Source: a virus
DNA: 64,000 nucleotides
Reading direction: 5' to 3' (one strand)
IMG/VR virus record: IMGVR_UViG_3300011271_000003
Location: 1-64,000 of that record
The notes beneath the pieces were generated by a model. That model worked only from the letters and a program-made list of their open reading frames with translations, did not search any database and was not told where the DNA came from. Every line of letters begins with the position of its first letter. Position 1 is the first letter of the stretch. The translations under genes were made by a program, and so were the position numbers. This document shows, in pieces, positions 18,920 to 34,393 of this stretch.

Positions 18920-19184
18920 GTCGTTCTCCCTGTATGATTCGGTCGATTGTCTGGTTGATTTCGTGTAGGTCCTTACGATTGCGGTAGCTACCAACGTAGT
19001 GGACTCTGATAGGTCCTGCTATGCGGGCGAGCCGGCGGAGCTTACTAGCGTTGATGACCTTTCTGCTTTGCGGACTGATCCTGTACCTGTGACACCAGTT
19101 ATGAAACTCTGATTCGTTTCCTGCTACGACAATCTGTAGCTCGTCGAAGTCGTCATTCTTGGCGTGAGGATGCTCGTCCTTCAT
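18894..19184 (-). CDS. Hypothetical protein next to DpdA (96 aa)
   Basis: Not recognised. Start chosen at ATG 19184, which overlaps the DpdA stop (ATGA); a GTG at 19196 is possible. Starts acidic, then basic (QSRKVINASKLRRLARIAG) with an alternating strand/helix pattern (RVHYVGSYRNRKDLHEI). Confidence 0.6.
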   Translation of the reverse strand: MKDEHPHAKNDDFDELQIVVAGNESEFHNWCHRYRISPQSRKVINASKLRRLARIAGPIRVHYVGSYRNRKDLHEINQTIDRIIQGERREQAQSDR

Positions 19185-19960
19185 TCTCCGCGACACCAGC
19201 GTTCTAGGATACCAATGTTGTGTCGGACTAGGCTGCCAGGTAGCTGAGCTGGTTCCAGCAGCATGTACCCTGCTTGTCGCTCAACGATGTCATCTTGGCA
19301 GTCGAGATGGCCACCCTCTGCAGCCCAGACGAAGGGTGCAGACGTGTCTACACCTCGGACGAATGGGCCGAGCTCTCTCGCTACGCTCCGGAGCTCTATC
19401 GGGTTCGATCTAGATAGTCCGAGCATATGCAGTGGGAACTGATCGTGATACTCCTGAACGACCCACTGCATGGTTATGAGACGGTCATTTTCCTCGTAGT
19501 CCTCCGTCATGCGCCGAGGGAATCCAAGGGTTATGTTCGTGCGATCGCTCTCTCCTACGAACTTAATGTAGTCCATTCGGCTACCAAGGTCCGTGCCCTG
19601 TACTACAGCCATGAGCTTTATGAACGGTGCTCGGATGGGCTGACGCTGATACCAGCGGTCGAAGTGACACAAGAACGCATCCTGCCGCTCTATGGTCTCT
19701 ACCGGATCGTCTTTCACGTCCGGCATTACGATCTCGGACACCTTGTACTCGGCTGCTAGTTCCAGGAGGTTCTGATCGTCGAGAATGTTTCCCTCAAACA
19801 TGCCGTTGTCTAGAATGACATGGAAGCTTGAGCTGTTGCCTAGGTACTTGTAGTGTCTCCGGTACGTCTCGTAGTCGAGGCCTACAGGTATGAGCATCTG
19901 GAGCTCTTGCTTGACTGTATGGTGGAGCATGCACACTGGCGGAATGAGCGCTAGTCTCAC
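19181..19960 (-). CDS. dpdA: DpdA-like 7-deazaguanine DNA transglycosylase
   Basis: 259 residues. Start chosen at GTG 19960, which overlaps the previous stop (GTGA); much longer upstream readings run through another gene. The barrel-like pattern fits phage DpdA, a TGT-fold enzyme that exchanges guanine in DNA for a 7-deazaguanine: a LIPPV opening, VILDNGMFEG in the place of the TGT nucleophile segment, EIVMPDVKDD, KLMAVVQGTD, and TLGFPRRM. All genes for making preQ0 lie within 9 kb upstream in the same operon. The TGT zinc site is not evident, as in other phage DpdA proteins. Confidence 0.75.
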   Translation of the reverse strand: MRLALIPPVCMLHHTVKQELQMLIPVGLDYETYRRHYKYLGNSSSFHVILDNGMFEGNILDDQNLLELAAEYKVSEIVMPDVKDDPVETIERQDAFLCHFDRWYQRQPIRAPFIKLMAVVQGTDLGSRMDYIKFVGESDRTNITLGFPRRMTEDYEENDRLITMQWVVQEYHDQFPLHMLGLSRSNPIELRSVARELGPFVRGVDTSAPFVWAAEGGHLDCQDDIVERQAGYMLLEPAQLPGSLVRHNIGILERWCRGE

Positions 19961-20238
19961 AGGAACTCCGTCTCTGCTACTGCCCAGGCGATTGCATCCT
20001 GCTTGTATGCCCGTCCTAGTTCCGATAGCGCGTGCTTGAGCTTGTCGATATCTAGGATGCCCGTGATCTCGAAGCAAAAGCATACGTTCTGAAACGGAGC
20101 CGTAGGTATTGAGTGCCAAAAGCCATGTACCTGAGTAGCACGGTGAACTATGCTGTAGTGGACCTGGTGTGAGAAGTCTGACCAGTCCTTTTGGCTGAGC
20201 TTGTCGTCGCTGTTGCCTATACTGACGTAGACGATCAT
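19957..20238 (-). CDS. Conserved small protein in the deazaguanine cluster (93 aa)
   Basis: Function unknown. Starts MIVYVSIGNSDDKLSQKDW and ends QDAIAWAVAETEFL, a pattern I associate with hypothetical proteins of actinomycetes and their phages. Overlaps the DpdA start (GTGA) and the MazG-like gene, so it is translationally coupled to both. Confidence 0.7.
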   Translation of the reverse strand: MIVYVSIGNSDDKLSQKDWSDFSHQVHYSIVHRATQVHGFWHSIPTAPFQNVCFCFEITGILDIDKLKHALSELGRAYKQDAIAWAVAETEFL

Positions 20239-20558
20239 GACTTCTGTCCGTATAGGTCGCCCATGGACATGAACCCTTCAGGTATGCCTGCCTGTTGCGC
20301 AGCTCGGTGCTTTGCCGTAATGGCATCTAGTGTCTTCTGTAGCATGTGAAGTTTGATCCAGGTAAAGCTGGCCCAGTTGATAATATCGGCAACCTCCTCC
20401 ATCAGCTCGGAAACGGTGTCAGCCTGTAGCCAGGTGAGCTTTCCGTACTCCTCCTCACCCTGTGCTAGTCGCTTCTTTAGCTCCTCGGCCAGGGCTGTCC
20501 GACCTTCCTCGACCATTGCTTCCAAAGCGCTTTTCATTGTACTTTCGCTTGCGGTCAT
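20235..20558 (-). CDS. MazG-like nucleotide pyrophosphohydrolase, second copy
   Basis: 107 residues from ATG 20558 (GAGGA upstream). QGEEEYGKLTW followed by SELMEEVADIINWASF fits the all-alpha NTP pyrophosphatase fold, in which the EExxD helix binds magnesium. Phage enzymes of this kind hydrolyse dNTPs or alarmones; the substrate cannot be told from sequence. It overlaps the neighbouring MazG-like gene by 104 bases in another frame. Confidence 0.6.
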   Translation of the reverse strand: MTASESTMKSALEAMVEEGRTALAEELKKRLAQGEEEYGKLTWLQADTVSELMEEVADIINWASFTWIKLHMLQKTLDAITAKHRAAQQAGIPEGFMSMGDLYGQKS

Positions 20559-20820
20559 AGAGATCCTCTAGGTCGATTCCGAGTTGTCCTGCAAGACAAA
20601 AAGCATACACGAATACGTCTACGATTTCGTAGCCTATAGCTGTGCGTGTGTCAGTATCAAGGACTTGCGCACCACTCCGGTACCACTTCTTGTACTCACC
20701 CGCGGCCTCGCCAGCCTCGCCACACAGACCGATGATAGCGTGACTGACGTCATCTTCCAGATGAGGAAACCAACTGACCGTGTCCTCGATTGCCTGGGCC
20801 GTCCGATCATTCAGATTCAC
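20455..20820 (-). CDS. MazG-like nucleotide pyrophosphohydrolase
   Basis: 121 residues from a GTG overlapping the previous stop (GTGA). GLCGEAGEAAGEYKKW and YEIVDVFVYAFCLAGQLGID are the two metal-binding helices of the MazG superfamily. The last ~22 residues are Gly/Ser/Arg-rich and overlap the start of the next gene. Possibly adjusts the dGTP pool in support of base modification; inferred. Confidence 0.75.
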   Translation of the reverse strand: MNLNDRTAQAIEDTVSWFPHLEDDVSHAIIGLCGEAGEAAGEYKKWYRSGAQVLDTDTRTAIGYEIVDVFVYAFCLAGQLGIDLEDLYDRKRKYNEKRFGSNGRGRSDSPGRGAKEATSTG

Positions 20821-20975
20821 TGAGGCACCACGCTACGAGTTACCGACTTGACGTCTCTCTCTCGCATCTCTTCGAGGGCGTCCTCTCTAAACTGCCTAGC
20901 TACGCGAGCGTCCTTCTTATGCCTAGCAGGTCCGTCTTCGATCTGGCTTCCCTTGCTGGTCTTGATGAACTTCAT
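20817..20975 (-). CDS. Small basic protein (52 aa)
   Basis: 52 residues starting MKFIKTSKGSQIEDGPARHK, charged and helical. Overlaps the start of the MazG-like gene (GTGA) and the stop of the Acb2-like gene. No family recognised. Confidence 0.6.
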   Translation of the reverse strand: MKFIKTSKGSQIEDGPARHKKDARVARQFREDALEEMRERDVKSVTRSVVPQ

Positions 20976-21214
20976 GCTGTTTCACTTGCTTCTATCGCAC
21001 ATCTGACGAAGCAGTCCTTTGCATGTAGCAGATCCCATAGGCCTGCTGTGAGCTGCGTACTGTCTGGATAGCTGTCAATCATGTGCTCTGCTAGGTCGAA
21101 GACCGCTTCACTTGCATTGCGAGCAGGACCGTCAAGGTGTCTGAACTCGAACCAGCGCGCAATGGCCTTGACGGATGGGTGCCGACCTGTTGTGTTGATT
21201 ACTGGACCACTCAT
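20972..21214 (-). CDS. Acb2-like cyclic-nucleotide sponge (candidate anti-CBASS protein)
   Basis: 80 residues; ATG follows a strong GGAGG. After a short lead, RWFEFRHLDGPARNASEAV, FDLAEHMIDSYP and LLHAKDCFVRCAI follow the pattern I know from the Acb2/Tad1 hairpin family (FxHL, LA-x-P, LLxAKDxxVRA). Such proteins bind cyclic oligonucleotide signals and block CBASS-type defence. Length and helical-hairpin make-up agree. Family membership is from memory of the motif, not from a search. Confidence 0.6.
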   Translation of the reverse strand: MSGPVINTTGRHPSVKAIARWFEFRHLDGPARNASEAVFDLAEHMIDSYPDSTQLTAGLWDLLHAKDCFVRCAIEASETA

Positions 21215-21223
21215 GGCTACCTC

Positions 21224-21424
21224 CTATGATAGGTAACGTTGTAGGTTCCATCGAGCACTGGCGTCAAGAGTAATCTCGCCCAGCTTAGGTCCTGACCAAG
21301 AGAGCTCTCCGTCATGTTCGAAGAGCTCGAACGTAACAGTTCCGTCGGCTCGTTCGTTGACGTTGATAAACTTTGGTCTGGACCCCACCTCACAGCCGGG
21401 CCCACGCTCACTGTAGGTGTACAT
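21224..21424 (-). CDS. Hypothetical protein (66 aa)
   Basis: Not recognised. 66 residues, beta-type (GTVTFELFEHDGELSW). A strong GGGAGG precedes the start. Lies between the Acb2-like gene and folE. Confidence 0.6.
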   Translation of the reverse strand: MYTYSERGPGCEVGSRPKFINVNERADGTVTFELFEHDGELSWSGPKLGEITLDASARWNLQRYLS

Positions 21425-21425
21425 G

Positions 21426-22205
21426 TTACCTCCCGTTGATCCTACTCAGAAACTCCTGTTTGGCTGTTTTGTCGTGGTCAGCGAAGACGCCCCGCATTGC
21501 GGCAGTGTACGTCCTAGTCCCTGTGGCCTGAACTCCACGGATTGACATACAGGTATGCTCTGCTTCCATCGCGACAGCTACACCTAGTGGCGTCAACTTC
21601 TCTTCGAGACCGTCAGCTATCTCTGTCGTCAGTTCTTCCTGCGTACTAAGGCTTGCCGCACACTGCAGGACGTAGCGCGGGATCTTGCTGAGCCCTGCTA
21701 GCTTACCGTTTGGGATATAAGCTACGTGTGCTACACCTGTATACGGCAGTACGTGGTGTCTACACAGGGAAGCAAACCGAATGTCAGCGACTACTACCAT
21801 CTCGTCTGATGTCGTGTCGAAAGTTGTGAACTCCCAGCTTGTATCTGGCGTCGTCAACTCTTTGATCGCTTGCGCCATTCGCTTCGGAGTGTCCCGCTCC
21901 TGTGGATCTTCTATGTTTAGGTTCGCGCACACTTCCAGAAAGTACTGGATACAGTCAGTCGGATATCTGTGCTCTTCGTGATACTTTCTAGCGTCGTACG
22001 CGTCTACGATCTGCGACGTTGGATCGAACGCAGGCGTAAGGATGTCTTTGTTGAAAACGGTGCAGGCCCCGCAGAAGGCGGCTTCACCGTGTACACACCT
22101 CGTATCCTCGTCTTCGCCTGTAGGATGTCGCGGCGTGTAGTGGAACTTCCCGGTACCGAAACCGTACATCGGCACAGGCACTTCATGGTACGGAGGGGGC
22201 ATCAT
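21426..22205 (-). CDS. folE: GTP cyclohydrolase I
   Basis: 259 residues. The catalytic half has FASLCRHHVLPYTGVAHVAY (zinc Cys and His), LAGLSKIPRYV and EHTCMSIRGV (second zinc Cys). The enzyme opens GTP to dihydroneopterin triphosphate, the first step towards 7-deazaguanine bases. An N-terminal extension of about 70 residues with a C-x7-C-x2-C cluster is not part of the usual enzyme. Start ATG 22205 or the next ATG. Confidence 0.95.
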   Translation of the reverse strand: MMPPPYHEVPVPMYGFGTGKFHYTPRHPTGEDEDTRCVHGEAAFCGACTVFNKDILTPAFDPTSQIVDAYDARKYHEEHRYPTDCIQYFLEVCANLNIEDPQERDTPKRMAQAIKELTTPDTSWEFTTFDTTSDEMVVVADIRFASLCRHHVLPYTGVAHVAYIPNGKLAGLSKIPRYVLQCAASLSTQEELTTEIADGLEEKLTPLGVAVAMEAEHTCMSIRGVQATGTRTYTAAMRGVFADHDKTAKQEFLSRINGR

Positions 22206-22522
22206 CGCTCCATCGCTGAGATGTCGATCAGAGCGGCCAGCATCTTGTCGACGCGGACTCTTTCCTGATCATAGTCTTTCCTAAGCGCCCGTGTATCTTC
22301 ATGACCTTCAAGTAGTGTCTGAAATGCTTCAGCTACGACATACGCGATCTCATAGCTGAAGACGTATGCGGCTGGTGACTCACAGCCAGGTGCGACTTTC
22401 TCCCACGAGCTTGCGCCGTCTTCGACTCGAAGACCTAGCCGAGAGCCGTCGTCCGAGCGGTGGATGACGTGGACGAAGACCTGGCCTCTCGCAGGGTCTT
22501 CCCTTACAAATGCCTTGATCAT
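22202..22522 (-). CDS. Unknown protein between queE and folE (106 aa)
   Basis: Not recognised. Start chosen at ATG 22522, which overlaps the queE stop. Residues 1-60 look beta-rich (GQVFVHVIHRSDDGSRLGL), the rest helical. Fixed inside the deazaguanine operon by overlaps on both sides, so a pathway-linked role is conceivable but unproven. Confidence 0.6.
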   Translation of the reverse strand: MIKAFVREDPARGQVFVHVIHRSDDGSRLGLRVEDGASSWEKVAPGCESPAAYVFSYEIAYVVAEAFQTLLEGHEDTRALRKDYDQERVRVDKMLAALIDISAMER

Positions 22523-23838
22523 CGCTTCCTCTCGTTTCCCCAGAGTAGTACGTGCTGTCGAAGTGAGAGACCGTAACCTCGAGCGAGTGTCTCCTTTACG
22601 AGTATCTTGCCCCTGTAGATTTGTCCTTTTGAGGTAGTGCCCTCGGGCATGATCATAACGCAGCAAGGCTGGATGTTACACTCCTTTACGATCTGGTCGA
22701 TTTCGTCGAAGTCGCTGCTGCGAGATACAACGAACTTGAAGTAGGCGCCGCAGAGGTGCAGGTGTCGTAGCACTGCTGGTTTGTATCGCTTGCTACGTAC
22801 GTTACCACTGTTTTCCAGCTTAGGGGAGACGACGAACTGGCTCACGTGGAAACGGAATTCGGATAGCGGCATAATGGTGCCTGCAGTCTCGATATGCCTT
22901 GTACATCCGAGTTCCTGGAGGAGGCGCAGCAGGGGCAGAAGTGCAGACTGCTGCATCATGGGCTCGCCGCCGCTAATTATGATCTTCGTCGGCTTGTTGT
23001 CGATATCCCACAAATTGCGCAGGTGATCTACCACCTCGTCTGCCCCCATCTCGTGACACTCTTCGGCTTTGTCAGACAGAATTGGAATTAGGAGCTTGTC
23101 TGCCTTAGCTTGTGTGACAGCCCAGGTGTAGTGCGTGTCGCACCAGGTGCACTCTAGGTTGCATCCGAAAAGCCTGACGAAGAGGCAGTGCTGTCCCGTG
23201 TAAGGACCTTCGCCCTGCCTAATTGAATAGTCGGACCGAAGATTTCGTTCACCTTCAGGAGACTATTCATAAGACATCACCTCCTTAAATGTGGCGCCAG
23301 GTTCGGCGCTTGACGATGCTTGATATGCATGTCTCGGTTACTTGGAACCTTCGGGCTAGGTTACTGATTGGCCACTTACCCTCGTGCAGTCTCCGAATCT
23401 CAAGAACACTTTCTTCGGTCAGCTTTGCTCGCGGATGCGTTTCTCCTAGCAGAAGTGTCCCGTCGCGCCGTCTATCTTCCCCGTTATTCTTGCTGTACGT
23501 TCCCCATACCAGATTTGGAAGAGAGTCGTCTAGAGGGCCTAGAGGTCCGTGGCAGGGAATTTGTCCCTTAGGCCGTGCGCACACGAATGCCTCTAGAACT
23601 AGAACGGCAACTTTACAGTTCTTGCTGCGTCCATTACGCGTAAGGGAAACTATATAATTGCTCCATGTCTGGTTCTTGTGAATCTTACACTTGGAGAGTA
23701 TCTTTCCGTCTAGGTTCCTCACATCACCTTGGTCGGAGACCTCGTAGAGGTCCTCGTAATCTACCACGGGCAGCCAGTGTGCGATGTTAGTCATGACGGC
23801 TGAATTGTCGGTCCGAATATCTCATTAACTTGCAGCAT
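22519..23838 (-). CDS. queE: 7-carboxy-7-deazaguanine synthase, interrupted by an HNH element
   Basis: The coding region is in two parts: 23803-23838 (MLQVNEIFGPTI, after GGGAGGTGA) and 22519-23217 (QGEGPYTGQHC onward). Joined, they give 244 residues, the normal size of QueE, with the radical-SAM cluster motif CNLECTWC and the glycine-rich IIISGGEPMM. The enzyme converts carboxy-tetrahydropterin to CDG. As DNA the parts are separated by 585 bp (23218-23802) holding an HNH gene and a second N-terminal copy, so an intact product needs splicing, frameshift or hopping; otherwise the gene is broken. The following queC and dpdA look intact, which argues that QueE function is retained or supplied by the host. 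Confidence 0.85.
23218..23802 (-). mobile_element. HNH-bearing insertion inside queE with recoded queE 5' copy
   Basis: 585 bp between codons 12 and 13 of queE. It contains the HNH gene (23285-23794), then TAAGGAGGTGAT (23276-23287), then an ATG at 23270 that reads 16 codons ending VNEIFGPTIQ. This repeats the queE N-terminus with seven synonymous and one non-synonymous codon change over 12 codons. Eight bases (23215-23222) then separate it from the rest of queE, so that reading frame is lost. Non-ORF sequence is too short for a standard group I intron core. Confidence 0.8.
23285..23794 (-). CDS. HNH homing endonuclease (NUMOD4-HNH-HTH)
   Basis: 169 residues. A NUMOD4-like start (WLPVVDYEDLYEVSDQGDV), an HNH core (IPCHGPLGPLDD...NLVWGTYSKNN) and a C-terminal helix-turn-helix (ISNLARRFQVTETCISSIV) follow in the usual order for phage homing enzymes. 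Its ATG overlaps the premature stop of the queE N-terminal fragment (TCATGA). The inferred target is the queE sequence it interrupts. Confidence 0.85.
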   Translation of the reverse strand: MTNIAHWLPVVDYEDLYEVSDQGDVRNLDGKILSKCKIHKNQTWSNYIVSLTRNGRSKNCKVAVLVLEAFVCARPKGQIPCHGPLGPLDDSLPNLVWGTYSKNNGEDRRRDGTLLLGETHPRAKLTEESVLEIRRLHEGKWPISNLARRFQVTETCISSIVKRRTWRHI

Positions 23839-23840
23839 GT

Positions 23841-24296
23841 TCACCTCCCTGGCCGCGCTACATGGATCGGCTCGTCTAGCGACTTCACGGTTGCTGCGTT
23901 GACTGCCGTCTCATGCACGGTGACGCGTACTGGTAGCTCGAACTCGTTCTCAGCCCAGGCGCAGATCCACCTAGCGATATTTTCTGTCGTGGGGTCATCC
24001 GGTACGCAGGTCAGGCCTGGCAGGTGGTCGTCCTGCTCCTCGATCCCCATAAAGCAGGTCCAGGGGTCGTCCTTGTTCAGCAGGAGGTGGTGGTCGTAGG
24101 TTGAGTTAAGGTAGTGTCGGAACGCTGCCTTCGCAGCCCCGAACTCGATACCGCCCAGGATTCCTTCCTCGTCGATCTCCCCGTAGATTGTGAGCTCAAC
24201 CCACATAGAGTGCCCATGTATGTTCTTGCACTTACCAGCCGTCATAGTTAGTCTATGCGCGACTTCTATGTTGTGCCGAATTGTTATGCTAGGCAT
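23841..24296 (-). CDS. queD: 6-carboxytetrahydropterin synthase
   Basis: 151 residues. VAHRL, the catalytic Cys in GKCKNIHGHSM with two zinc histidines, the YDHHLLLN segment and the closing VTVHETAVNAA are those of the PTPS/QueD family. It converts dihydroneopterin triphosphate to carboxy-tetrahydropterin. The stop TGA forms part of the queE ribosome site. Confidence 0.95.
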   Translation of the reverse strand: MPSITIRHNIEVAHRLTMTAGKCKNIHGHSMWVELTIYGEIDEEGILGGIEFGAAKAAFRHYLNSTYDHHLLLNKDDPWTCFMGIEEQDDHLPGLTCVPDDPTTENIARWICAWAENEFELPVRVTVHETAVNAATVKSLDEPIHVARPGR

Positions 24297-24789
24297 CCGT
24301 CCTCCCTTGGGTCTTGCGCTTGATCTCCTCTAGAATCGGGATTGGCCTTCGTTCGTGGCCGTGTGGGACAAAACCTGAATCGTGCAGGACATACTCTGGT
24401 GGTTTTCCTTCTAGGAGGTTGCAGAACTCGTCCGCCCACATCTGCGATGCCATCTGATGCTCTGCCGTGACGAGGTTCTTATCGCGCGTGAGAGCGACTG
24501 TTTGCAAGATTGCACCTGCACGCTTGAGAAGGTCTCGGGACCTGACTAGCGGAAAGAACGAGACCTTCTTGCCTCTTGCAACGTTGCGTATTGCTGGGAC
24601 TGAACAACAGATGGCTGCTATTGCAAGATCAGCCGCGTTGGCGTTGTCGAAGACAGTCTGTACTCGCCTGTAGTTCCAGTAGTTCTCGGTGTCCGCCATG
24701 TTGCCGGACACAATCATGACTCCCTGGTACCTCGCCATGTCGTAGGGATCTATGTCGTCTACAAGTAGAGTGATTTTGTTCGGCTGCAT
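24289..24789 (-). CDS. Unknown protein at the head of the queD-queE-folE run (166 aa)
   Basis: Not recognised. Opens with a Rossmann-like strand (ITLLVDDIDPYD) and continues with helices and a Cys pair (AAICCSVPAI). Overlaps queD by 8 bases. Being first in this sub-operon, it could be a regulator or an extra pathway enzyme; nothing in the sequence decides. Confidence 0.65.
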   Translation of the reverse strand: MQPNKITLLVDDIDPYDMARYQGVMIVSGNMADTENYWNYRRVQTVFDNANAADLAIAAICCSVPAIRNVARGKKVSFFPLVRSRDLLKRAGAILQTVALTRDKNLVTAEHQMASQMWADEFCNLLEGKPPEYVLHDSGFVPHGHERRPIPILEEIKRKTQGRTDA

Positions 24790-24931
24790 AGTGATCTCGT
24801 CCTGGATAATGTAGTCCGTAGAGACGAGGTCAAACGTGTGGCCACGATTCTGGATGACACCAAGGGCCGTCCAGAGTTCATGTCCACTAAATTATAGCGA
24901 CGGGCGCATATAACTAGAACGCGTGTCACTA
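24790..24931 (-). promoter_or_regulatory. Non-coding gap, possible minus-strand promoter
   Basis: 142 bp without a gene. A TATAAT on the minus strand at 24891-24896 is a candidate -10 for the 24289-24789 gene, but the hexamer 17 bases upstream (TTCTAG) is a poor -35. No inverted repeat of note. Confidence 0.35.
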
Positions 24932-25426
24932 CTAAACCACCGCCCTTCGGTTAATACCTTTTCTGCTCCGGAGCTCAGGTGGTGTCTCCCAAATGTTGAC
25001 GGCCTGAGTTACGGGGCGTGCATGAATTAGACAGAGCTTCTTGTGACACGAATGTGCCAGAACTAGTCCTTCAGGTACTGGTCCGTTATGTGCCACCCAC
25101 CAAAGTACATGAACAGGCTGGCTATTGTAGAGCCCATAGCCTTTCTTATGTACAGCGCCAGTCCACATTCTGCAGCCAGCCTTGTCTATGCGTGAATCAG
25201 CCATAAGGATGGCTATCATTGCTGGACCGTTTTCTAGTGCTAGGCGCGCTGTCTTTTGCTGCGAACTTCTTGCGTTTCCTGACATACAACTTCTACACCA
25301 GGAGTGTCGACCGTCTCTGCGGCCGCTTCCTCGTGGGAAGTCCTTGAACTTCTTCATCTCTCCGCATTTGGTGCATGCGGTTTGTATACCTGACGCAACA
25401 TCTTCTAGGTATACATCGCGAGTCAT
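24932..25426 (-). CDS. HNH endonuclease with N-terminal zinc ribbon
   Basis: 164 residues. CTKCGEMKKFKDFPRG and CRSC form a zinc ribbon; residues 88-160 (CRMWTGAVHKKGYGLY, VLAHSCHKKLCL) are an HNH core of the cargo type common in phages. Starts in a TAATG overlap with the gene upstream. Free-standing homing gene lying in the deazaguanine operon. Confidence 0.75.
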   Translation of the reverse strand: MTRDVYLEDVASGIQTACTKCGEMKKFKDFPRGSGRRDGRHSWCRSCMSGNARSSQQKTARLALENGPAMIAILMADSRIDKAGCRMWTGAVHKKGYGLYNSQPVHVLWWVAHNGPVPEGLVLAHSCHKKLCLIHARPVTQAVNIWETPPELRSRKGINRRAVV

Positions 25427-25845
25427 TACTTCGTGACCTGGTTCTTTTCTACGCCGAAGCGATCTATTACTTCGGCGGCGTCGATTACAGGTGCATCAGT
25501 GATGTTCACTGGTGCCTTACCTACAATGTCGCCACTGTGTGGCACTTTGGCGATGTTGTTGTATAGCGGGTTCGGCAGCCCCGTCTCCTCGTCTACGTCC
25601 GTTCTGGCTGCGTATATCTCGCCCTGCCTGTTGAAGATCCGAATTGGTAGATTGTGACTTCTGATGTACGCTCCGAGGCAGGAATTAAGACTTTGCAGTC
25701 CCTGCTGGATACCTGTGCGGTCTAGCTGTGCGACTACGAGTCCTGTTTCCAGGAAGGTCTTCAGAAGAGGATAGCTTACACGGCCTCTGTGTGATTCGCG
25801 AAAGTTGGGAATCTCATCTGGGGCGACTGCCTTCCACTTCATGGC
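25426..25845 (-). CDS. Unknown protein behind a strong promoter (139 aa)
   Basis: Not recognised. Start at ATG 25845 with GAGAGAGGA upstream. The core (SYPLLKTFLETGLVVAQLD, SCLGAYIRSHNLPIRIF) looks like a compact alpha/beta DNA-binding-type fold, and the C-terminal 40 residues are polar. It is the first gene after a consensus-like promoter at 25883-25911. Confidence 0.65.
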   Translation of the reverse strand, partial: AMKWKAVAPDEIPNFRESHRGRVSYPLLKTFLETGLVVAQLDRTGIQQGLQSLNSCLGAYIRSHNLPIRIFNRQGEIYAARTDVDEETGLPNPLYNNIAKVPHSGDIVGKAPVNITDAPVIDAAEVIDRFGVEKNQVTK

Positions 25846-25882
25846 GAGTCCTCTCTCTCTTGTGGTTTGTTGTTCACCTCTT

Positions 25883-25911
25883 ATTGTATAATTGGTGAAG
25901 ATGAAATTCAA
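25883..25911 (-). promoter_or_regulatory. Sigma70-type promoter
   Basis: On the minus strand TTGAAT (25906-25911), 17 bases, TACAAT (25883-25888). Lies 38 bases before the ATG of the 139-aa gene in an AT-rich gap. Probably drives the modification operon leftwards. Confidence 0.75.
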
Positions 25912-25971
25912 GTGTTTAAACACGGCAAAGTTTTAACCACTTAAAGATTCCTGTCTAGGGATGATGGCTGG

Positions 25972-26196
25972 CTACTGCCGCTCTACGCTGCCTGTGCTCC
26001 AGATGTGCTGCTCCATGTACAGGTCGAATCGATCAGCTAGGACGTAAAACTCGTTTCTGGTAAGTACGATACTTTGACAGCGAAGCTTCTCGTCAGGTTC
26101 GTCCTCGCGGACGACGCTAGCTTCTACTTCGATCCAGTCTGTACCTGCTTCGTCGAGAGTGCACGCTTCCAACGTCACTCTCGACTTAGGCCTCAC
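25972..26196 (-). CDS. Hypothetical protein (74 aa)
   Basis: Not recognised. GTG start overlapping the queC end by 11 bases. Beta strands then a helix (IVLTRNEFYVLADRFDLYME). Confidence 0.6.
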   Translation of the reverse strand: MRPKSRVTLEACTLDEAGTDWIEVEASVVREDEPDEKLRCQSIVLTRNEFYVLADRFDLYMEQHIWSTGSVERQ

Positions 26197-27943
26197 GCTG
26201 AGGTCCCTCAGCTACTGCTTCCTTCCAGAACTCCGTGTCTGCATACTGTGTCTTGTCCCAGTTTTTAGGCGCCTTGGTTACGCTAGCGATCGCCTCTAGT
26301 CTCTCGACACAGGTTCCGCACCTGCCACAGTGAATTTCGTTGCCTCTGTAACAACTCCAGGTCAGCTCGAGAGGTACGCCCCGGCGGTACGCCTCGGCAG
26401 CTATGTCGTCTTTGGAGAGGTGGATGAAGGGGACGAGGATTTCGAAGTTAGGCCGAATGAATCCCTCGTTGCCCCACTGCAGCGTCTCTAGCACTGAGTG
26501 CATGAAGATAGGTCTGCAGTCTGGATACTGATAGTGGTCGCCGGCGTGCATACCGGCTGCGACATAACGGTACTTCGCGTTGACTGCAACAGCTGCAGCG
26601 ATCGAGAACATCATCATGTTCCGGTTAGGTACTACGGTAATGGCCATGTTGTCGGCACTGTTATGCGACAAGTAGCCGTCTGCGATGAGAGTACTTGTGC
26701 TGGTCCCTAGTGCTACGACAGCGCGGTTGCCTACAGGTTCGACGGATACCACTCTGACTGGACGAGTGCGCGAGCCTGCTATCCATCGTCCCTCCCAGAG
26801 ACGACGGGCGCTCTGCCTGAAACGTGTTGGCTGGAACATTCCAACGAACCGCAGAGCCGTCTGCTCACCTTCTAGGCGGAATCGGAGACACTCTGTTTTT
26901 GTCTCCTTTGTGTTCTTGAAGCCCTCGCTTGGTTGGAATCCGAACTTCTTGAGTGCAACCTTGACGCGCTCAAGAGTCTCTCCAGGATTCTGCGAGAATT
27001 GGAAGTTCGTGTCATGCAGGGTGGCTTCGCCATCCATGAAGCCTGCAAGGTATCCGGCGTCACTATCAGTTTGTACTTCCCAAGGGTTCAGGTAGAGCGA
27101 AAGCGTGTCACCGGGCATGAGTCCTAGAGAGTGTCCACTAGGACCTGAGGTAACCGTTGGGTCGTACGTTTTGCGCCACCTACGCCCTGTAGCCAGACCA
27201 CCGCCGCTACGTCCTCTTCTAGCTACCCAAAGGTGGTCGTAGCTAGCTACGACCTCTTGTCCCGTCTCTAGTACTATGCGAGCACAGGGCAGAACCTTAA
27301 CGCTGGTTGCCGTTACTGTCGATTCCTGCAGCTTCGAAGCTGGTTTGCCCTGTTGTCCTGAGCGTAGCTCTTCATCGAAGCCTACGACCTTGTCTCCTAC
27401 TGCTAGGTCTTCGATATTGCGCCACACAAGGTCAGTGCATAGTACCTTCGTGCCTGGTGCTAGACAGTAGTGACCTTCCGGAACTTCAATTCGGGAATGC
27501 ACCGTAGCAGTGTTGCGGTCCAACACCGTAGGCTGCGGAGGCGAGGTGAGAGCGGAGTTGCTGATCAGATCGGTAATACTGGACAGGTCGATCCGCGACC
27601 ACCGGAGCCCCAAGCGTTCCGCGGTCCACAGGGCGTATTGGAGCTCCTTCAGGTGCCTCTGGCCGTAGTCGAACGAAAGGAGGTGCGGGCGCTTTCCGAG
27701 ATGTACGAGGTGGTAGGCCGTGGTAATGCTGTCCAGTCCGCCTGAGACAATGGCGACACCATCGCTCTTGTCGTTCTCCCAATCAGGCTCGTACCTAGAA
27801 ACAAGCTCTGTTCCCATTCTTTCTCCTTTGTAGTACCAGTTGTATGGTGACTCGTCTAGGCCTGCCTCAGGGCTCTCTAGCCGCCCAAGTGGCATGAGCG
27901 GTGTCGGCTTTACGTAGGTTCCTGGAATCGATTGGGGTCTCAT
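26186..27943 (-). CDS. queC: 7-cyano-7-deazaguanine (preQ0) synthase with intein
   Basis: 585-residue precursor, 316 after splicing; ATG 27943 follows GGAGGAGGAG. The PP-loop SGGLDS and VVPNRN, and the zinc cysteines in SCYRGNEIHCGRCGTCVER, define QueC, which converts CDG to preQ0 with ATP and ammonia. The first ~70 residues are an extension not found in typical QueC. The intein splits VPEGHY/SADNM just before the VVPNRN block. No QueF, ArcS or amidotransferase partner is seen, so preQ0 is the likely end product. Confidence 0.95.
   Translation of the reverse strand: MRPQSIPGTYVKPTPLMPLGRLESPEAGLDESPYNWYYKGERMGTELVSRYEPDWENDKSDGVAIVSGGLDSITTAYHLVHLGKRPHLLSFDYGQRHLKELQYALWTAERLGLRWSRIDLSSITDLISNSALTSPPQPTVLDRNTATVHSRIEVPEGHYCLAPGTKVLCTDLVWRNIEDLAVGDKVVGFDEELRSGQQGKPASKLQESTVTATSVKVLPCARIVLETGQEVVASYDHLWVARRGRSGGGLATGRRWRKTYDPTVTSGPSGHSLGLMPGDTLSLYLNPWEVQTDSDAGYLAGFMDGEATLHDTNFQFSQNPGETLERVKVALKKFGFQPSEGFKNTKETKTECLRFRLEGEQTALRFVGMFQPTRFRQSARRLWEGRWIAGSRTRPVRVVSVEPVGNRAVVALGTSTSTLIADGYLSHNSADNMAITVVPNRNMMMFSIAAAVAVNAKYRYVAAGMHAGDHYQYPDCRPIFMHSVLETLQWGNEGFIRPNFEILVPFIHLSKDDIAAEAYRRGVPLELTWSCYRGNEIHCGRCGTCVERLEAIASVTKAPKNWDKTQYADTEFWKEAVAEGPQREA
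26660..27466 (-). mobile_element. Intein in queC, LAGLIDADG type (269 aa)
   Basis: Begins CLAPGTKVL, has SYDHLWVARRG, one LAGLIDADG-like motif (GYLAGFMDGEATL), and ends YLSHN before Ser+1. All splicing residues are present. Block-by-block similarity to the polymerase intein indicates a recent common ancestor, and both sit after an EG(D/H)Y sequence. Confidence 0.93.
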
Positions 27944-28185
27944 GGTAGGTCTCCTCCTCCGTGATAGGCATCCGGCCCTTCCCACCAGGGCCTAGGACCG
28001 TCGTTGCCATAGCGACGGTACATGTAGTCACACATCCAGGCAATGCTGTCTACGACAGGCACTCCTGGTGCTGGGCCGCTAGGGTCCACGTGCGTGCCGT
28101 AATAGCGGCTGAAGCTGCGCTTGACCGCCAGAATATCTGCTAGAGGATCTGCGTCAGGCCTGTCCCATGGGAGATGCTCAGGCAT
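27940..28185 (-). CDS. Hypothetical protein (81 aa)
   Basis: Not recognised. Pro/Asp-rich start (MPEHLPWDRPDADPLADIL), a helical middle and a Gly/Trp-rich end. TAATG overlap with the primase gene and ATGA with queC. Confidence 0.6.
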   Translation of the reverse strand: MPEHLPWDRPDADPLADILAVKRSFSRYYGTHVDPSGPAPGVPVVDSIAWMCDYMYRRYGNDGPRPWWEGPDAYHGGGDLP

Positions 28186-31327: not shown

Positions 31328-31870
31328 TCAGGGAAGAACTGACGCAGCTGCCGCAGGCTTAGCGTCGACTCCGCTCGCCGTGGAGGTTCCTCCCTCATAC
31401 TTCATGAAGCTCATGAGCTCGATGCGCGGTTCGACGACTCCTTCGGAGTTCTTGTTCTTCTTGTTAAGCCGCCGAATGCCCCAGATGTCCTTGCCGATGT
31501 AGAACTCACGGGCGTCTGGGATAACGAGTGCGCCAGCCTGGACAGGGTAGTCCAGGGCCTTCAGGATCTGGCTGATTGTGTACAGCGCCGGCTCGAAGCA
31601 CATCGCGTTCGTCCAGTCCTTGTACGTTACGTACTTGCCGTCCTGGATGATGAACTCGAAGTTGATAAACGGCTTGCCTCGGTTCTCAGGCTTGGCGTTT
31701 TCCGAGGTGAACTTGATCTCCATGTCGGTGATCTTGAGGTGGAACTTACCCGCCGGAAGGTCTTCACGCGCCTTGGAGGCCGCTTCCTCCGCCGACATGT
31801 TCACTCTGATACCTTCGCCAGTGCCCATGGAGGAGGTACCTTGGAGACCAACTTCGTCGGGGGTGGTCAT
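31328..31870 (-). CDS. Putative ssDNA-binding protein (DUF669-like)
   Basis: 180 residues. A polar start, then GKFHLKITDMEIKFTSE, GKPFINFEFIIQDGKY and AREFYIGKDIWGIRRLN, beta strands as in DUF669-type phage proteins that partner recombinases. It lies between the Sak4-like ATPase and the primase. The role rests on family resemblance and position. Confidence 0.6.
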   Translation of the reverse strand: MTTPDEVGLQGTSSMGTGEGIRVNMSAEEAASKAREDLPAGKFHLKITDMEIKFTSENAKPENRGKPFINFEFIIQDGKYVTYKDWTNAMCFEPALYTISQILKALDYPVQAGALVIPDAREFYIGKDIWGIRRLNKKNKNSEGVVEPRIELMSFMKYEGGTSTASGVDAKPAAAASVLP

Positions 31871-32262
31871 GATAGTGTCCCTTCTGTGTTCGCTTTCACG
31901 GTTCGCTTTCTAGGTGTACCGAAGTGCTCGTTGTAGTATCTCTCGACGTTCTGTCCTTGTGTCTTCGCCTCTAGGCAGTCTGGGGCGACACAGAGTTTAA
32001 TGTCGCACAGCTGATCGATGACGCAGCCCTTTGGAATCGGCCCCTTGAAGAGTATGTACGAGTACCTATGGGCCAGAATTGTTTTGCCACGGATTCTGGT
32101 GACGCCGTAACCGCTATAACCGTACTTTGGATCCTTCGATCCCCGACTTGTATGCCCTTTGTGCTCAGCGCCCTGCCAGATCCAGTGCTTACCGACTTTT
32201 ATAACCTGCTTATGCTCCAGGTTGTATTTACGTTGCTCGTCAGTAAGTCTCGGAGGCGCCAC
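31867..32262 (-). CDS. HNH-family protein with both catalytic histidines lost
   Basis: 131 residues from a GTG start. WIWQGA, GYGVTRIRGK and LAHRYSYILFKGPIP match small cargo-type HNH endonucleases, but the active site reads VIDQLCDIKLCVAPDCLEA: the usual DHLC His is Gln and the usual PxHL His is Cys. It overlaps the ssDNA-binding-like gene's start (ATGA). Probably catalytically dead. Confidence 0.65.
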   Translation of the reverse strand: MAPPRLTDEQRKYNLEHKQVIKVGKHWIWQGAEHKGHTSRGSKDPKYGYSGYGVTRIRGKTILAHRYSYILFKGPIPKGCVIDQLCDIKLCVAPDCLEAKTQGQNVERYYNEHFGTPRKRTVKANTEGTLS

Positions 32263-32516: not shown

Positions 32517-34184
32517 TCAGCTAGTTTCTGGCTTCTTGCTGATGCCTTGCGTGATTCCCTTGTAGATGTCTGCCATTGTCGGGTCGATCATAACATCCGG
32601 TAGATTCCCAGATCTGTCCTTTCCGATATATCCCTCGCGTGCGCCTGTAAGTAGCTTGCGGACAGGCTTGCCGTCTTCTGTCTTCATGTACAGGTAGGTG
32701 ACGACATCGAAGAACCCCGCCACCTCGAACGAGAGCTTCCCTGACAACTGAGGCATGTGCAGGATCGAGCCGTTCAGGGCGTCTTTCTCTTGCCGTTCGT
32801 GAGCTGTCATGATCACGTTGACGGGGAGGTCACGGTACTTGCGAACCCACTTGCGAATCTGCTCTATATTCTTACCCCACCTCCTGATATCCGGAATGTC
32901 TGGGTCCCAGTTCTTCTCTGGTTCTGCCATAAGCAGCTCGGCCATAAGCTGGGACATGTTCATTTTCTGGCACTCGGTAAGAGTATCCAGAATGACAGTG
33001 CGTGGCGCGTACTCTCCAGGTTGTACGCCATTGTAGCAGTTGTGGACGAAGATTCCCGCTCCTATGGCGAAGTTTCTTGTCGAAGTTTGAATGTCGAATG
33101 TGGGCTCTTCTCCTGCTGGCGTTATGGAGACTACTCTGTGGTTTTGCTTATTTTCCTGTAGGATCCTGTAGACGCGCGATACTGATAGATTCAGGTGCTC
33201 TGCTACTTGCATCCGTGTCCAGTCAGGGTGTTCTTGTATAGCAGTCGCAACTTGGTCACGACTGGACCCCTGACCTGGCCTGCCCCTCTTCTCATTGTAG
33301 TACTCCTGTAGTCCCGCTGCACTAGCTTGCTCTGACTCAGAAGTGTGCCACTTGAAGTCTGTCAGCTTAGAGTGATCTCCCCGTGAAAGGCACTCTAGGT
33401 TGTCAGGGTAGTTGTTGAATGTGTTGTTGGGATCAGCATCGTTGCGGTGGTGTACGACCATACCTTCAATATCCATGCCGAAGAACCTCGCTGCGACTCT
33501 GTGCATATACTCCAATGGAGTCGTCCATTTGTTGTCCGGCTTGACTACGTGGTACTGCTTTTTTGACTTACCTACTGTAACGGTGCTCACGGTAGCAGGC
33601 ATCAGCGATGTGCCTCGGATGAGCTTATCTACGCGTGCATAGGTTCCATCGCGCAGCATAAGAAGGTGGTCTCCAGTTGCCCTAAATCGAGAAAGATTCC
33701 CAACTCTGTCGTCGAGTACGACTTCGTATACAGGCTTAACGCCCTGTACGAAGACTTCCTCGACTAGGGCCGGCGTCCAGCCGTCTTCGTCCGTCCACCC
33801 CCAGACCCAGTCTCCCTTTTGTAGGGCGGCTATTAGCCTGTTCCTGTTGAGCGTAATGACTTCGGTGTCACCTGTCAGGCATTGTCGAGCTATCTGATCG
33901 TACACTGCCTCTAGCTGGGCCCAGGAGAGGCTTCCTTCCTCTGGAACCTTTTTGATCTCTGGAGCTGCATGCCGAAGCGTCATGTCCCCGCCCTCAATGT
34001 TGAGGTACAGGACCGGACGCATTGCGGGCACGTGATCCGCCGTAGCAGCCAGGAACGTCTTGCCGACGCCAGGCTGGCCATATATAAGTAGGTTGATATT
34101 GGCACGTGTGTCTCTGACCGGGGCAAAAGGAATGCCCGCGAACGTCTTTGGACTTACGACAACGTTTGCCGCCGGAGTGGTCAC
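32517..34184 (-). CDS. Sak4-like RecA-fold ATPase (ssDNA annealing/recombination) with intein
   Basis: 555-residue precursor, 274 after splicing. Start at GTG 34184 (AGAGGAG upstream, GTGA overlap). Walker A GQPGVGKT, Walker B TVILDTL after the intein, and a sensor-like VIMTAHERQ are as in the Sak4 group of phage recombination ATPases. It neighbours a Cas4-like exonuclease and a putative ssDNA-binding protein, so the three probably form one recombination system. Confidence 0.82.
   Translation of the reverse strand: MTTPAANVVVSPKTFAGIPFAPVRDTRANINLLIYGQPGVGKTFLAATADHVPAMRPVLYLNIEGGDMTLRHAAPEIKKVPEEGSLSWAQLEAVYDQIARQCLTGDTEVITLNRNRLIAALQKGDWVWGWTDEDGWTPALVEEVFVQGVKPVYEVVLDDRVGNLSRFRATGDHLLMLRDGTYARVDKLIRGTSLMPATVSTVTVGKSKKQYHVVKPDNKWTTPLEYMHRVAARFFGMDIEGMVVHHRNDADPNNTFNNYPDNLECLSRGDHSKLTDFKWHTSESEQASAAGLQEYYNEKRGRPGQGSSRDQVATAIQEHPDWTRMQVAEHLNLSVSRVYRILQENKQNHRVVSITPAGEEPTFDIQTSTRNFAIGAGIFVHNCYNGVQPGEYAPRTVILDTLTECQKMNMSQLMAELLMAEPEKNWDPDIPDIRRWGKNIEQIRKWVRKYRDLPVNVIMTAHERQEKDALNGSILHMPQLSGKLSFEVAGFFDVVTYLYMKTEDGKPVRKLLTGAREGYIGKDRSGNLPDVMIDPTMADIYKGITQGISKKPETS
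33039..33881 (-). mobile_element. Intein in the Sak4-like gene, HNH type (281 aa)
   Basis: Starts CLTGDTEVITL after IARQ and ends GIFVHN before Cys+1. Instead of LAGLIDADG it has an HNH core (MVVHHRNDADPNN with PDNLE) and a helix-turn-helix-like tail (MQVAEHLNLSVSRVYRIL). Splicing residues are complete. Confidence 0.92.
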
Positions 34185-34393
34185 TGGCGCTCCTCTTTGC
34201 ATGGGCTGCCGTTGAGCATACATTCTGCCGCTACAAGTACTGCTTCAGCATAGCCTTCGTCGTGTGACTCCCAGCCATGCTCGCCTTCGACGTGTTCCCA
34301 GAGCTTCTCAGGATCAATTCCGACCGCAAGACCTATACGGTCGCACTCAGTTGGCCTGGGATCGAGGTCTATCCAGGGTTCGCCTACACTCAC
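34181..34393 (-). CDS. Hypothetical protein (70 aa)
   Basis: Start chosen at GTG 34393, overlapping the previous stop (GTGA) after TTGGAG. Acidic, with DYxx-free helical C-terminus (SHDEGYAEAVLVAAECML). No family recognised. Confidence 0.6.
   Translation of the reverse strand: MSVGEPWIDLDPRPTECDRIGLAVGIDPEKLWEHVEGEHGWESHDEGYAEAVLVAAECMLNGSPCKEERQ

Follow-up and report, generated by a model that had tools for sequence, protein, structure and literature searches.

We identified a phage queE gene that is interrupted by a homing-endonuclease-like gene and provided, beyond that gene, with a second, recoded start that lies out of frame with the rest of queE. The structure is real and recurrent: its layout is common to four junctions in three phages, each consisting of a nuclease gene, a Shine-Dalgarno sequence, a new start, native protein sequence, and a short insert. 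The interpretation toward which we lean, if only modestly, is that a homing cassette takes the native start of its target gene, returns it in recoded form, and relies on a short ribosomal hop to yield the intact protein. The window, by which we mean the whole 64,000-nucleotide stretch that was analyzed, comprises positions 1 to 64,000 of IMG/VR virus record IMGVR_UViG_3300011271_000003.

Structure of the interrupted queE gene

In the window, queE is interrupted by an HNH (NUMOD4) gene, after which queE starts anew, with a Shine-Dalgarno sequence of its own and recoded first codons (MNSLLKVNEIFGPTIQ). The parts of the locus are as follows:

23803..23838, minus strand: displaced native queE start, MLQVNEIFGPTI, with its ATG at 23838 and the Shine-Dalgarno sequence GGGAGGTG upstream
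23802-23218, minus strand: the 585-nt insert in queE
23285..23794, minus strand: HNH/NUMOD4 homing-endonuclease-like gene of 169 aa, from Pfam and PHROG matches
23279..23287, minus strand: TAA stop of the HNH gene merging into GGAGG, the Shine-Dalgarno sequence of the replacement start
23223..23270, minus strand: recoded replacement queE start, MNSLLKVNEIFGPTIQ, with its ATG at 23270
23224..23269, minus strand: predicted hairpin spanning the entire recoded start, −19.5 kcal/mol
23225-23223, minus strand: presumed take-off codon CAA at the queE junction
23215..23222, minus strand: 8-nt insert TTAGGCAG, composed of UUA (A site), GG, and the presumed landing codon CAG
22519..23214, minus strand: QueE body (GEGPYTG...), beginning with GGC, where decoding would resume, and retaining both CNLECTWC and GGEP

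An earlier note, made from the sequence alone, had described queE as encoded in two parts that meet exactly at TI/QGEG, and all of the elements it named were found at their places on the minus strand. Its reading of the 585-bp insert as an HNH gene plus a second start was confirmed; the open reading frame (ORF) at 23794-23285 matches Pfam NUMOD4 (E = 9.5e-7) and PHROG HNH families (best 1.2e-27). Counted from CAG, the body (23217-22519, minus strand) reads QGEGPYTGQHC... and belongs to a phage QueE family (PHROG 2076, E = 7e-52). The displaced start now opens a leader ORF of 15 codons, which terminates at 23791 and shares an ATGA overlap with the HNH start; this leader is probably translationally coupled to the HNH gene. 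The replacement start reads TAAGGAGGTGATGTCTT, then ATG AAT AGT CTC CTG AAG GTG AAC GAA ATC TTC GGT CCG ACT ATT CAA. At the junction (CAA / TTAGGCAG / GGC), the 8 bases at 23222-23215 set the body in another frame, as had been claimed.

Our recount of the 12 codons shared by the old and recoded starts agrees with the earlier one (7 synonymous, 1 replacement [L to Q], and 4 identical). Third-position changes make up 8 of the 9 base differences between them (P ~0.001 if neutral), and when the whole window was compared with itself in six frames, the pair was the top-scoring tandem protein repeat. A DNA search with this region gave no match in the phage collection. Relatives of the HNH gene (HNH1) in viral contigs were distant ones only, with no additional out-of-frame junction among them.

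Recurrence of the structure and uninterrupted relatives

The closest queE to that of the window (61%) belongs to another phage (L002) and is likewise interrupted. Its native start reads GTG AGG CTA CTT CAG GTA AAC AGG ATC TTT GGT CCA. The interrupting gene differs from the HNH gene of the window; it is a LAGLIDADG-like ORF, named from the motif AYCAGFFDGEGS only, as a Pfam search gave no match. After this nuclease ORF come a Shine-Dalgarno sequence and ATG AGG CTG CTA CAG ATC AAT AAG ATC TTC GGC CCT ACT. The junction is ACT / TGACC / ATC, continuing CAG GGG GAA, such that the recoded start stops just before the native next codon and the spacer opens with a stop. The notion of a homing gene that carries a recoded rescue start is well supported: L002 shows it again with another type of nuclease, and two DJ-1-like elements have a related layout. 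One of these two lies in the window:

24932..25426, minus strand: HNH_3 gene whose start resembles the native DJ-1-like start (ATGACTCGCG)
24891..24929, minus strand: replacement start of a DJ-1/PfpI-like gene, VTRVLVICARRYN, with AAT as putative take-off codon
24886..24890, minus strand: 5-nt insert TTAGT after AAT, followed by the native next codon GGA
24289..24885, minus strand: DJ-1/PfpI-like gene body (GHELWTALGV...)

This replacement start reads GTG ACA CGC GTT CTA GTT ATA TGC GCC CGT CGC TAT AAT, and the junction is AAT / TTAGT / GGA, then CAT GAA CTC TGG. The old start has been cut to three or four codons that are used directly by the HNH gene. The other DJ-1-like element, in a third phage (L159), has an HNH gene, a start ending ..CGC TAC AAT, then TAGT and GGC CAC GAG (junction AAT / TAGT / GGC).

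We made the comparison with uninterrupted queE genes that the earlier note had proposed. About 80 further queE loci from viral contigs run without interruption in a single frame, as do cellular relatives, including those of Streptomyces CC208A, MnatMP-M17, and JJ38. Similarly, 12 DJ-1-like relatives are uninterrupted and in frame; 11 are contiguous through ..RYNGHELW or RFNGHELW, and the DJ-1-like gene of L002 (L233) reads RYNPHALY. A Streptomyces SM1 locus (L214) was considered as an interrupted queE and rejected, being degenerate queE debris rather than a comparable element. A junction-specific pattern run over viral contigs gave four matches, all unrelated.

Other arrangements near gene starts were also seen. 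In L083 (1671-2628) and L180 (1477-2567), the start of a RuvC-like gene has received an HNH-type insertion; the nuclease gene opens with an apparent native RuvC start, and an in-frame replacement start follows. This layout is possibly an in-frame relative of the start swap. Another contig (L080, 448 and 1267) has a tandem pair of QueE-like reading frames sharing the start RSIQGEGDRTGV.

At all four junctions, the spacer stands directly after the last recoded codon and directly before the next native codon. The spacers are TTAGGCAG (window queE), TTAGT (window DJ-1-like), TGACC (L002), and TAGT (L159), and skipping any one of them yields the family protein with zero residues gained or lost. Their first triplets are TTA, TTA, TGA, and TAG; the chance that four random triplets would all be a stop or TTA is ~1.5e-5. 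The accompanying nucleases are of several kinds (NUMOD4-HNH, HNH_3 twice, and the LAGLIDADG-like ORF). Because the junction offsets differ (8, 5, 5, and 4 nt), a fixed frame is not the conserved feature, and a constant −1 offset in all elements is ruled out by the 4-nt offset of L159.

Possible translation across the junctions

The queE body is unable to start by itself, because its frame contains no ATG, GTG, or TTG before 23049. That position is inside the QueE protein, past the radical-SAM cysteines (CxxxCxxC motif). Therefore, either the ribosome joins the two frames or QueE is not made. The DJ-1-like body of the window similarly has no ATG, GTG, or TTG in frame before 24789, well inside conserved sequence.

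Codon usage sets the first spacer codon apart. The window contig (G000) has 54% G+C, and TTA accounts for just 2 of 8,323 codons in its confident genes (CTA and ATA occur at 18 and 11.5 per 1000), one of the two being a final sense codon. Despite this near-absence, TTA is present at both window junctions. TTA is found in 0 of 3,002 codons at the L002 locus. At the L159 locus, TTA is ordinary (5.2 per 1000, even within the recoded start), and the junction there has TAG. The candidate stall codon fits the codon usage of each phage. A scan of the genome for other TTA-linked frame breaks by codon usage gave none that was convincing, with a threshold that also misses the known short starts. No tRNA genes were found in the contig. 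On the basis of UUA avoidance and the nearest cellular QueE relatives, the host is probably a Streptomyces-like bacterium. In such hosts, UUA (bldA) could make expression of the gene stage dependent.

The take-off and landing codons would be CAA/CAG for the window queE and ACT/ACC for L002, encoding the same residue in each pair. For the DJ-1-like gene of the window, AAT and the landing triplet AGT are a near match only (two of three bases). The DJ-1-like junctions, with no perfectly matched landing codon, appear to suit a hop less well than queE does. Note that matched codons could also be a simple product of the recoded start overlapping the native gene by one codon.

The recoded queE start is predicted to fold at −19.5 kcal/mol, compared with a mean of −6.1 (SD 2.6) for synonymous recodings, and the 3′ arm of this hairpin ends in the take-off codon CAA. 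The old start, in the displaced exon, folds at −0.7 kcal/mol. Once 12 nt upstream were included, the window hairpin had z = −4.2; an uninterrupted control (L003) reached z = −4.0, made of separate small hairpins. With the same upstream sequence included, no significant fold relative to synonymous recoding was present at the other three junctions. We thus treat the predicted hairpin as supportive at the queE junction only.

Comparison with known systems

The MobA/gene 60 cassette of phage T4, with its 50-nt bypass, is the closest experimental precedent (PMC5009743), and the mobA insertion in T4 has further support (PMC2988022). In T4, as in the window, a phage gene has been split by a homing endonuclease, and close to the start of the new downstream gene lies a noncoding insert, headed in T4 by an in-phase stop. 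The ribosome takes off and lands at matching codons in T4, bypassing the insert, for which a role in protection against the nuclease has been proposed (PMC5009743). In the loci described here, the interrupted gene part is likewise immediately preceded by a homing endonuclease gene, and the noncoding insert opens with a stop or unused codon after the putative take-off site (TTA in the window, TGA in L002, and TAG in L159). A stem-loop at or just 5′ of the take-off codon is strong at the window queE and not significant at the other three junctions, and one control is also strong. However, the inserts are only 4 to 8 nt, and the start of the gene is not just set apart but present in a second, recoded copy. 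In the window, UUA replaces the stop, and the break is at codon 16 instead of 46. Furthermore, the nascent-peptide signal that T4 has ~25 to 30 residues before take-off cannot be present at the window queE, because only 15 residues precede CAA. Given that this feature is absent, the queE element would be a variant of the T4-type bypass cassette rather than a proven member.

The yeast WHO homing elements in FBA1 set a precedent for replacing a portion of the target gene (PMC7282813). There, too, the native portion gives way to a resistant version that the element brings along, and the old part persists as a fragment. Element-borne replacement and a displaced native fragment are found at queE in both the window and L002. 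WHO elements differ in that they replace the 3′ end, in frame, in eukaryotes, and with a nuclease of HO/intein type; the phage elements described here instead exchange the 5′ end, out of frame, and have HNH or LAGLIDADG-like nucleases. Neither a nuclease of HO/intein lineage nor replacement of a 3′ end was found at queE in the window or L002. Out-of-frame HNH insertion elements are also known from actinophage methylases (ShiLan domain; PMC11855218). Like the window element, these are unorthodox HNH homing insertions within actinophage genes that are neither inteins nor introns. In ShiLan-type insertions, however, the methylase frame runs through the insert, with no replacement start and no frame break. 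An intein was considered for the queE insert and rejected: the insert has a stop in the queE frame (TGA, 23793-23791), and the HNH gene has no detected splicing domain.

Junctions of similar composition occur in Streptomyces phage terminases. The terminase of phiHau3 (L161 2329-3995), annotated as misc_feature only, reads GGC / TTACTCC / GGT / AAG and TCT / TTAACGG / TCC / ACG when compared with contiguous homologs. GreenWeasel (L189) has both UUA junctions and BroPlease (L190) has the first one only; the Yosif terminase is a contiguous homolog, and ~1,600 records match. The codons flanking the UUA junctions of phiHau3 and GreenWeasel are synonymous. At the second junction, a perfect GC-rich hairpin (CCGGGCCC...GGGCCCGG) abuts the take-off codon, and contiguous relatives lack this hairpin. 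These three terminases share with the window a take-off codon, UUA, a short gap, a synonymous landing codon, and an exact native protein. Unlike in the window, no homing gene is present at the junction, the inserts measure 10 nt, and the original gene start is kept. A review by Atkins and colleagues suggested bypassing in phiHau3, and considered UUA in Streptomyces the best candidate for regulatory bypassing (PMC5009743). The same review describes many mitochondrial bypasses of Magnusiomyces with an unused A-site codon and sometimes imperfect landing codons (PMC5009743). The window junctions match what the review describes.

Alternative explanations

The earlier note had left four options for the frame break: RNA splicing, a −1 shift, a hop from CAA to CAG, and a recently broken gene. 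Our results favor the hop, since its A-site UUA is nearly unused, equivalent junctions have TTA, TGA, or TAG, and phiHau3-type junctions follow the same grammar. They speak against a −1 slip, as no slippery −1 site able to re-pair was found at the junctions. The main rival, which we consider unlikely yet well ahead of the others, is that the cassette homed in and left queE (and the DJ-1-like gene) broken, a recent defect in which no QueE is made or other enzymes serve. The junctions are indeed out of frame, those of the DJ-1-like genes have no matched landing codon, and HNH elements followed by an in-frame gene exist elsewhere (L083, L179, and L180). Against simple decay, the break at each of the four junctions comes exactly where the native codons of the recoded start end, and a stop or UUA comes next. 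Apart from the junctions, the bodies (232 and 197 codons) are undamaged and retain their catalytic motifs, and UUA is nearly missing from the rest of the genome. Decay would also leave the matched codons and hairpin of queE unexplained.

It is improbable that an N-terminal peptide and a separately initiated body assemble, as in the split nrdA of phage Aeh1. Phage enzymes split by homing-gene insertion are known (PMC2988022), a TTG overlapping the TGA of L002 (TTGA) would give MTIQGEG..., and L159 has an internal GTG in the body frame. The window bodies, however, offer no such start codon until deep within each protein, and the N-terminal strand and QGEG align with solved QueE proteins. Errors of assembly or sequencing, or mixed strains in a metagenome, are a still weaker explanation. 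Each interrupted locus is a single metagenomic contig, and one T fewer would turn TTAG into TAG at both window junctions; that change would nevertheless leave a stop and no open frame. Equivalent breaks at homologous places in contigs of two other metagenomes (L002 and L159), and thus in three altogether, make an artifact unlikely. Least probable by our estimate is an intron of 585 nt, whose splicing from the mRNA would connect the old exon with the body. An exon-U/intron-G boundary could suit the DNA ends, and a precise join would restore TI/QGEG. Yet no Rfam intron was detected in 22000-26500, even at permissive thresholds, or in L002, and no Rfam match to a group I catalytic core was obtained. 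With just ~75 nt outside the nuclease ORF, there is too little non-ORF sequence for such a core, and a Shine-Dalgarno sequence with a recoded coding copy inside would be useless to an intron.

Proposed mechanism and its implications

Under the hop model, the conserved GPTI/QGEG codons of an uninterrupted queE would be the site of nuclease cleavage, and the cassette would be copied in during repair. The cassette has captured the native translation start, the old 12 codons now forming the short leader with the ATGA overlap, and queE has a new Shine-Dalgarno sequence and recoded first 16 codons. We infer that the spacer of 4 to 8 nt and the recoding would split the halves of the cleavage site, such that the recoded 5′ half and the spacer plausibly hinder re-cutting by the endonuclease. 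The spacer opens with what would be a poorly decodable codon, UUA in the window phage and stops in its relatives. Peptidyl-tRNA-Gln would then leave CAA, the hairpin would re-form behind the ribosome, and the tRNA would re-pair with CAG. Decoding would restart at GGC and give exactly the native QueE (...PTIQ-GEGPYTG...).

Outside mitochondria, T4 gene 60 is the main case of programmed bypassing, and the origin of gene 60 beside a homing gene has been puzzling. If our reading is correct, homing elements repeatedly create short bypasses, with a suggested reason for doing so. It would also provide minimal bypasses of 4 to 8 nt that are testable with reporters, and a natural counterpart, in a phage DNA-modification pathway, of engineered gene drives with a recoded rescue copy. 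The UUA junctions are also relevant to the suggested use of bypassing at UUA by Streptomyces and its phages. More tentatively, and leaning slightly against it for now, we raise the possibility of a general class of actinophage start-swapping homing cassettes. Such cassettes would have been built repeatedly with unrelated nucleases, with a micro-bypass at an unused or stop codon conferring immunity to cutting while the protein is kept.

Genomic neighborhood

The interrupted queE is part of a 7-deazaguanine cluster (19181-24300, minus strand) that includes a FolE-type guanosine triphosphate cyclohydrolase (21426-22205), QueD (23841-24296), the split QueE, and QueC. The ORF at 19181-20326 looks DpdA-like, with no Pfam match. 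From this cluster, the phage DNA is likely modified. Within the QueC ORF (26186-27985, minus strand) lies an in-frame insert whose ends are intein-like (CLAPGTKV...SHN) and which contains a LAGLIDADG-like motif (YLAGFMDGE); therefore, at least three neighboring genes of the 7-deazaguanine cluster carry homing-type insertions. Farther along, an AAA_24 protein (32517-34223, minus strand) has an intein containing an HNH_3 domain. A third HNH_3 gene (31867-32262, minus strand) lies directly before an intact gene (start MTTPDEVGLQ) with no frame break, and by its arrangement appears to be an ordinary free-standing homing gene.
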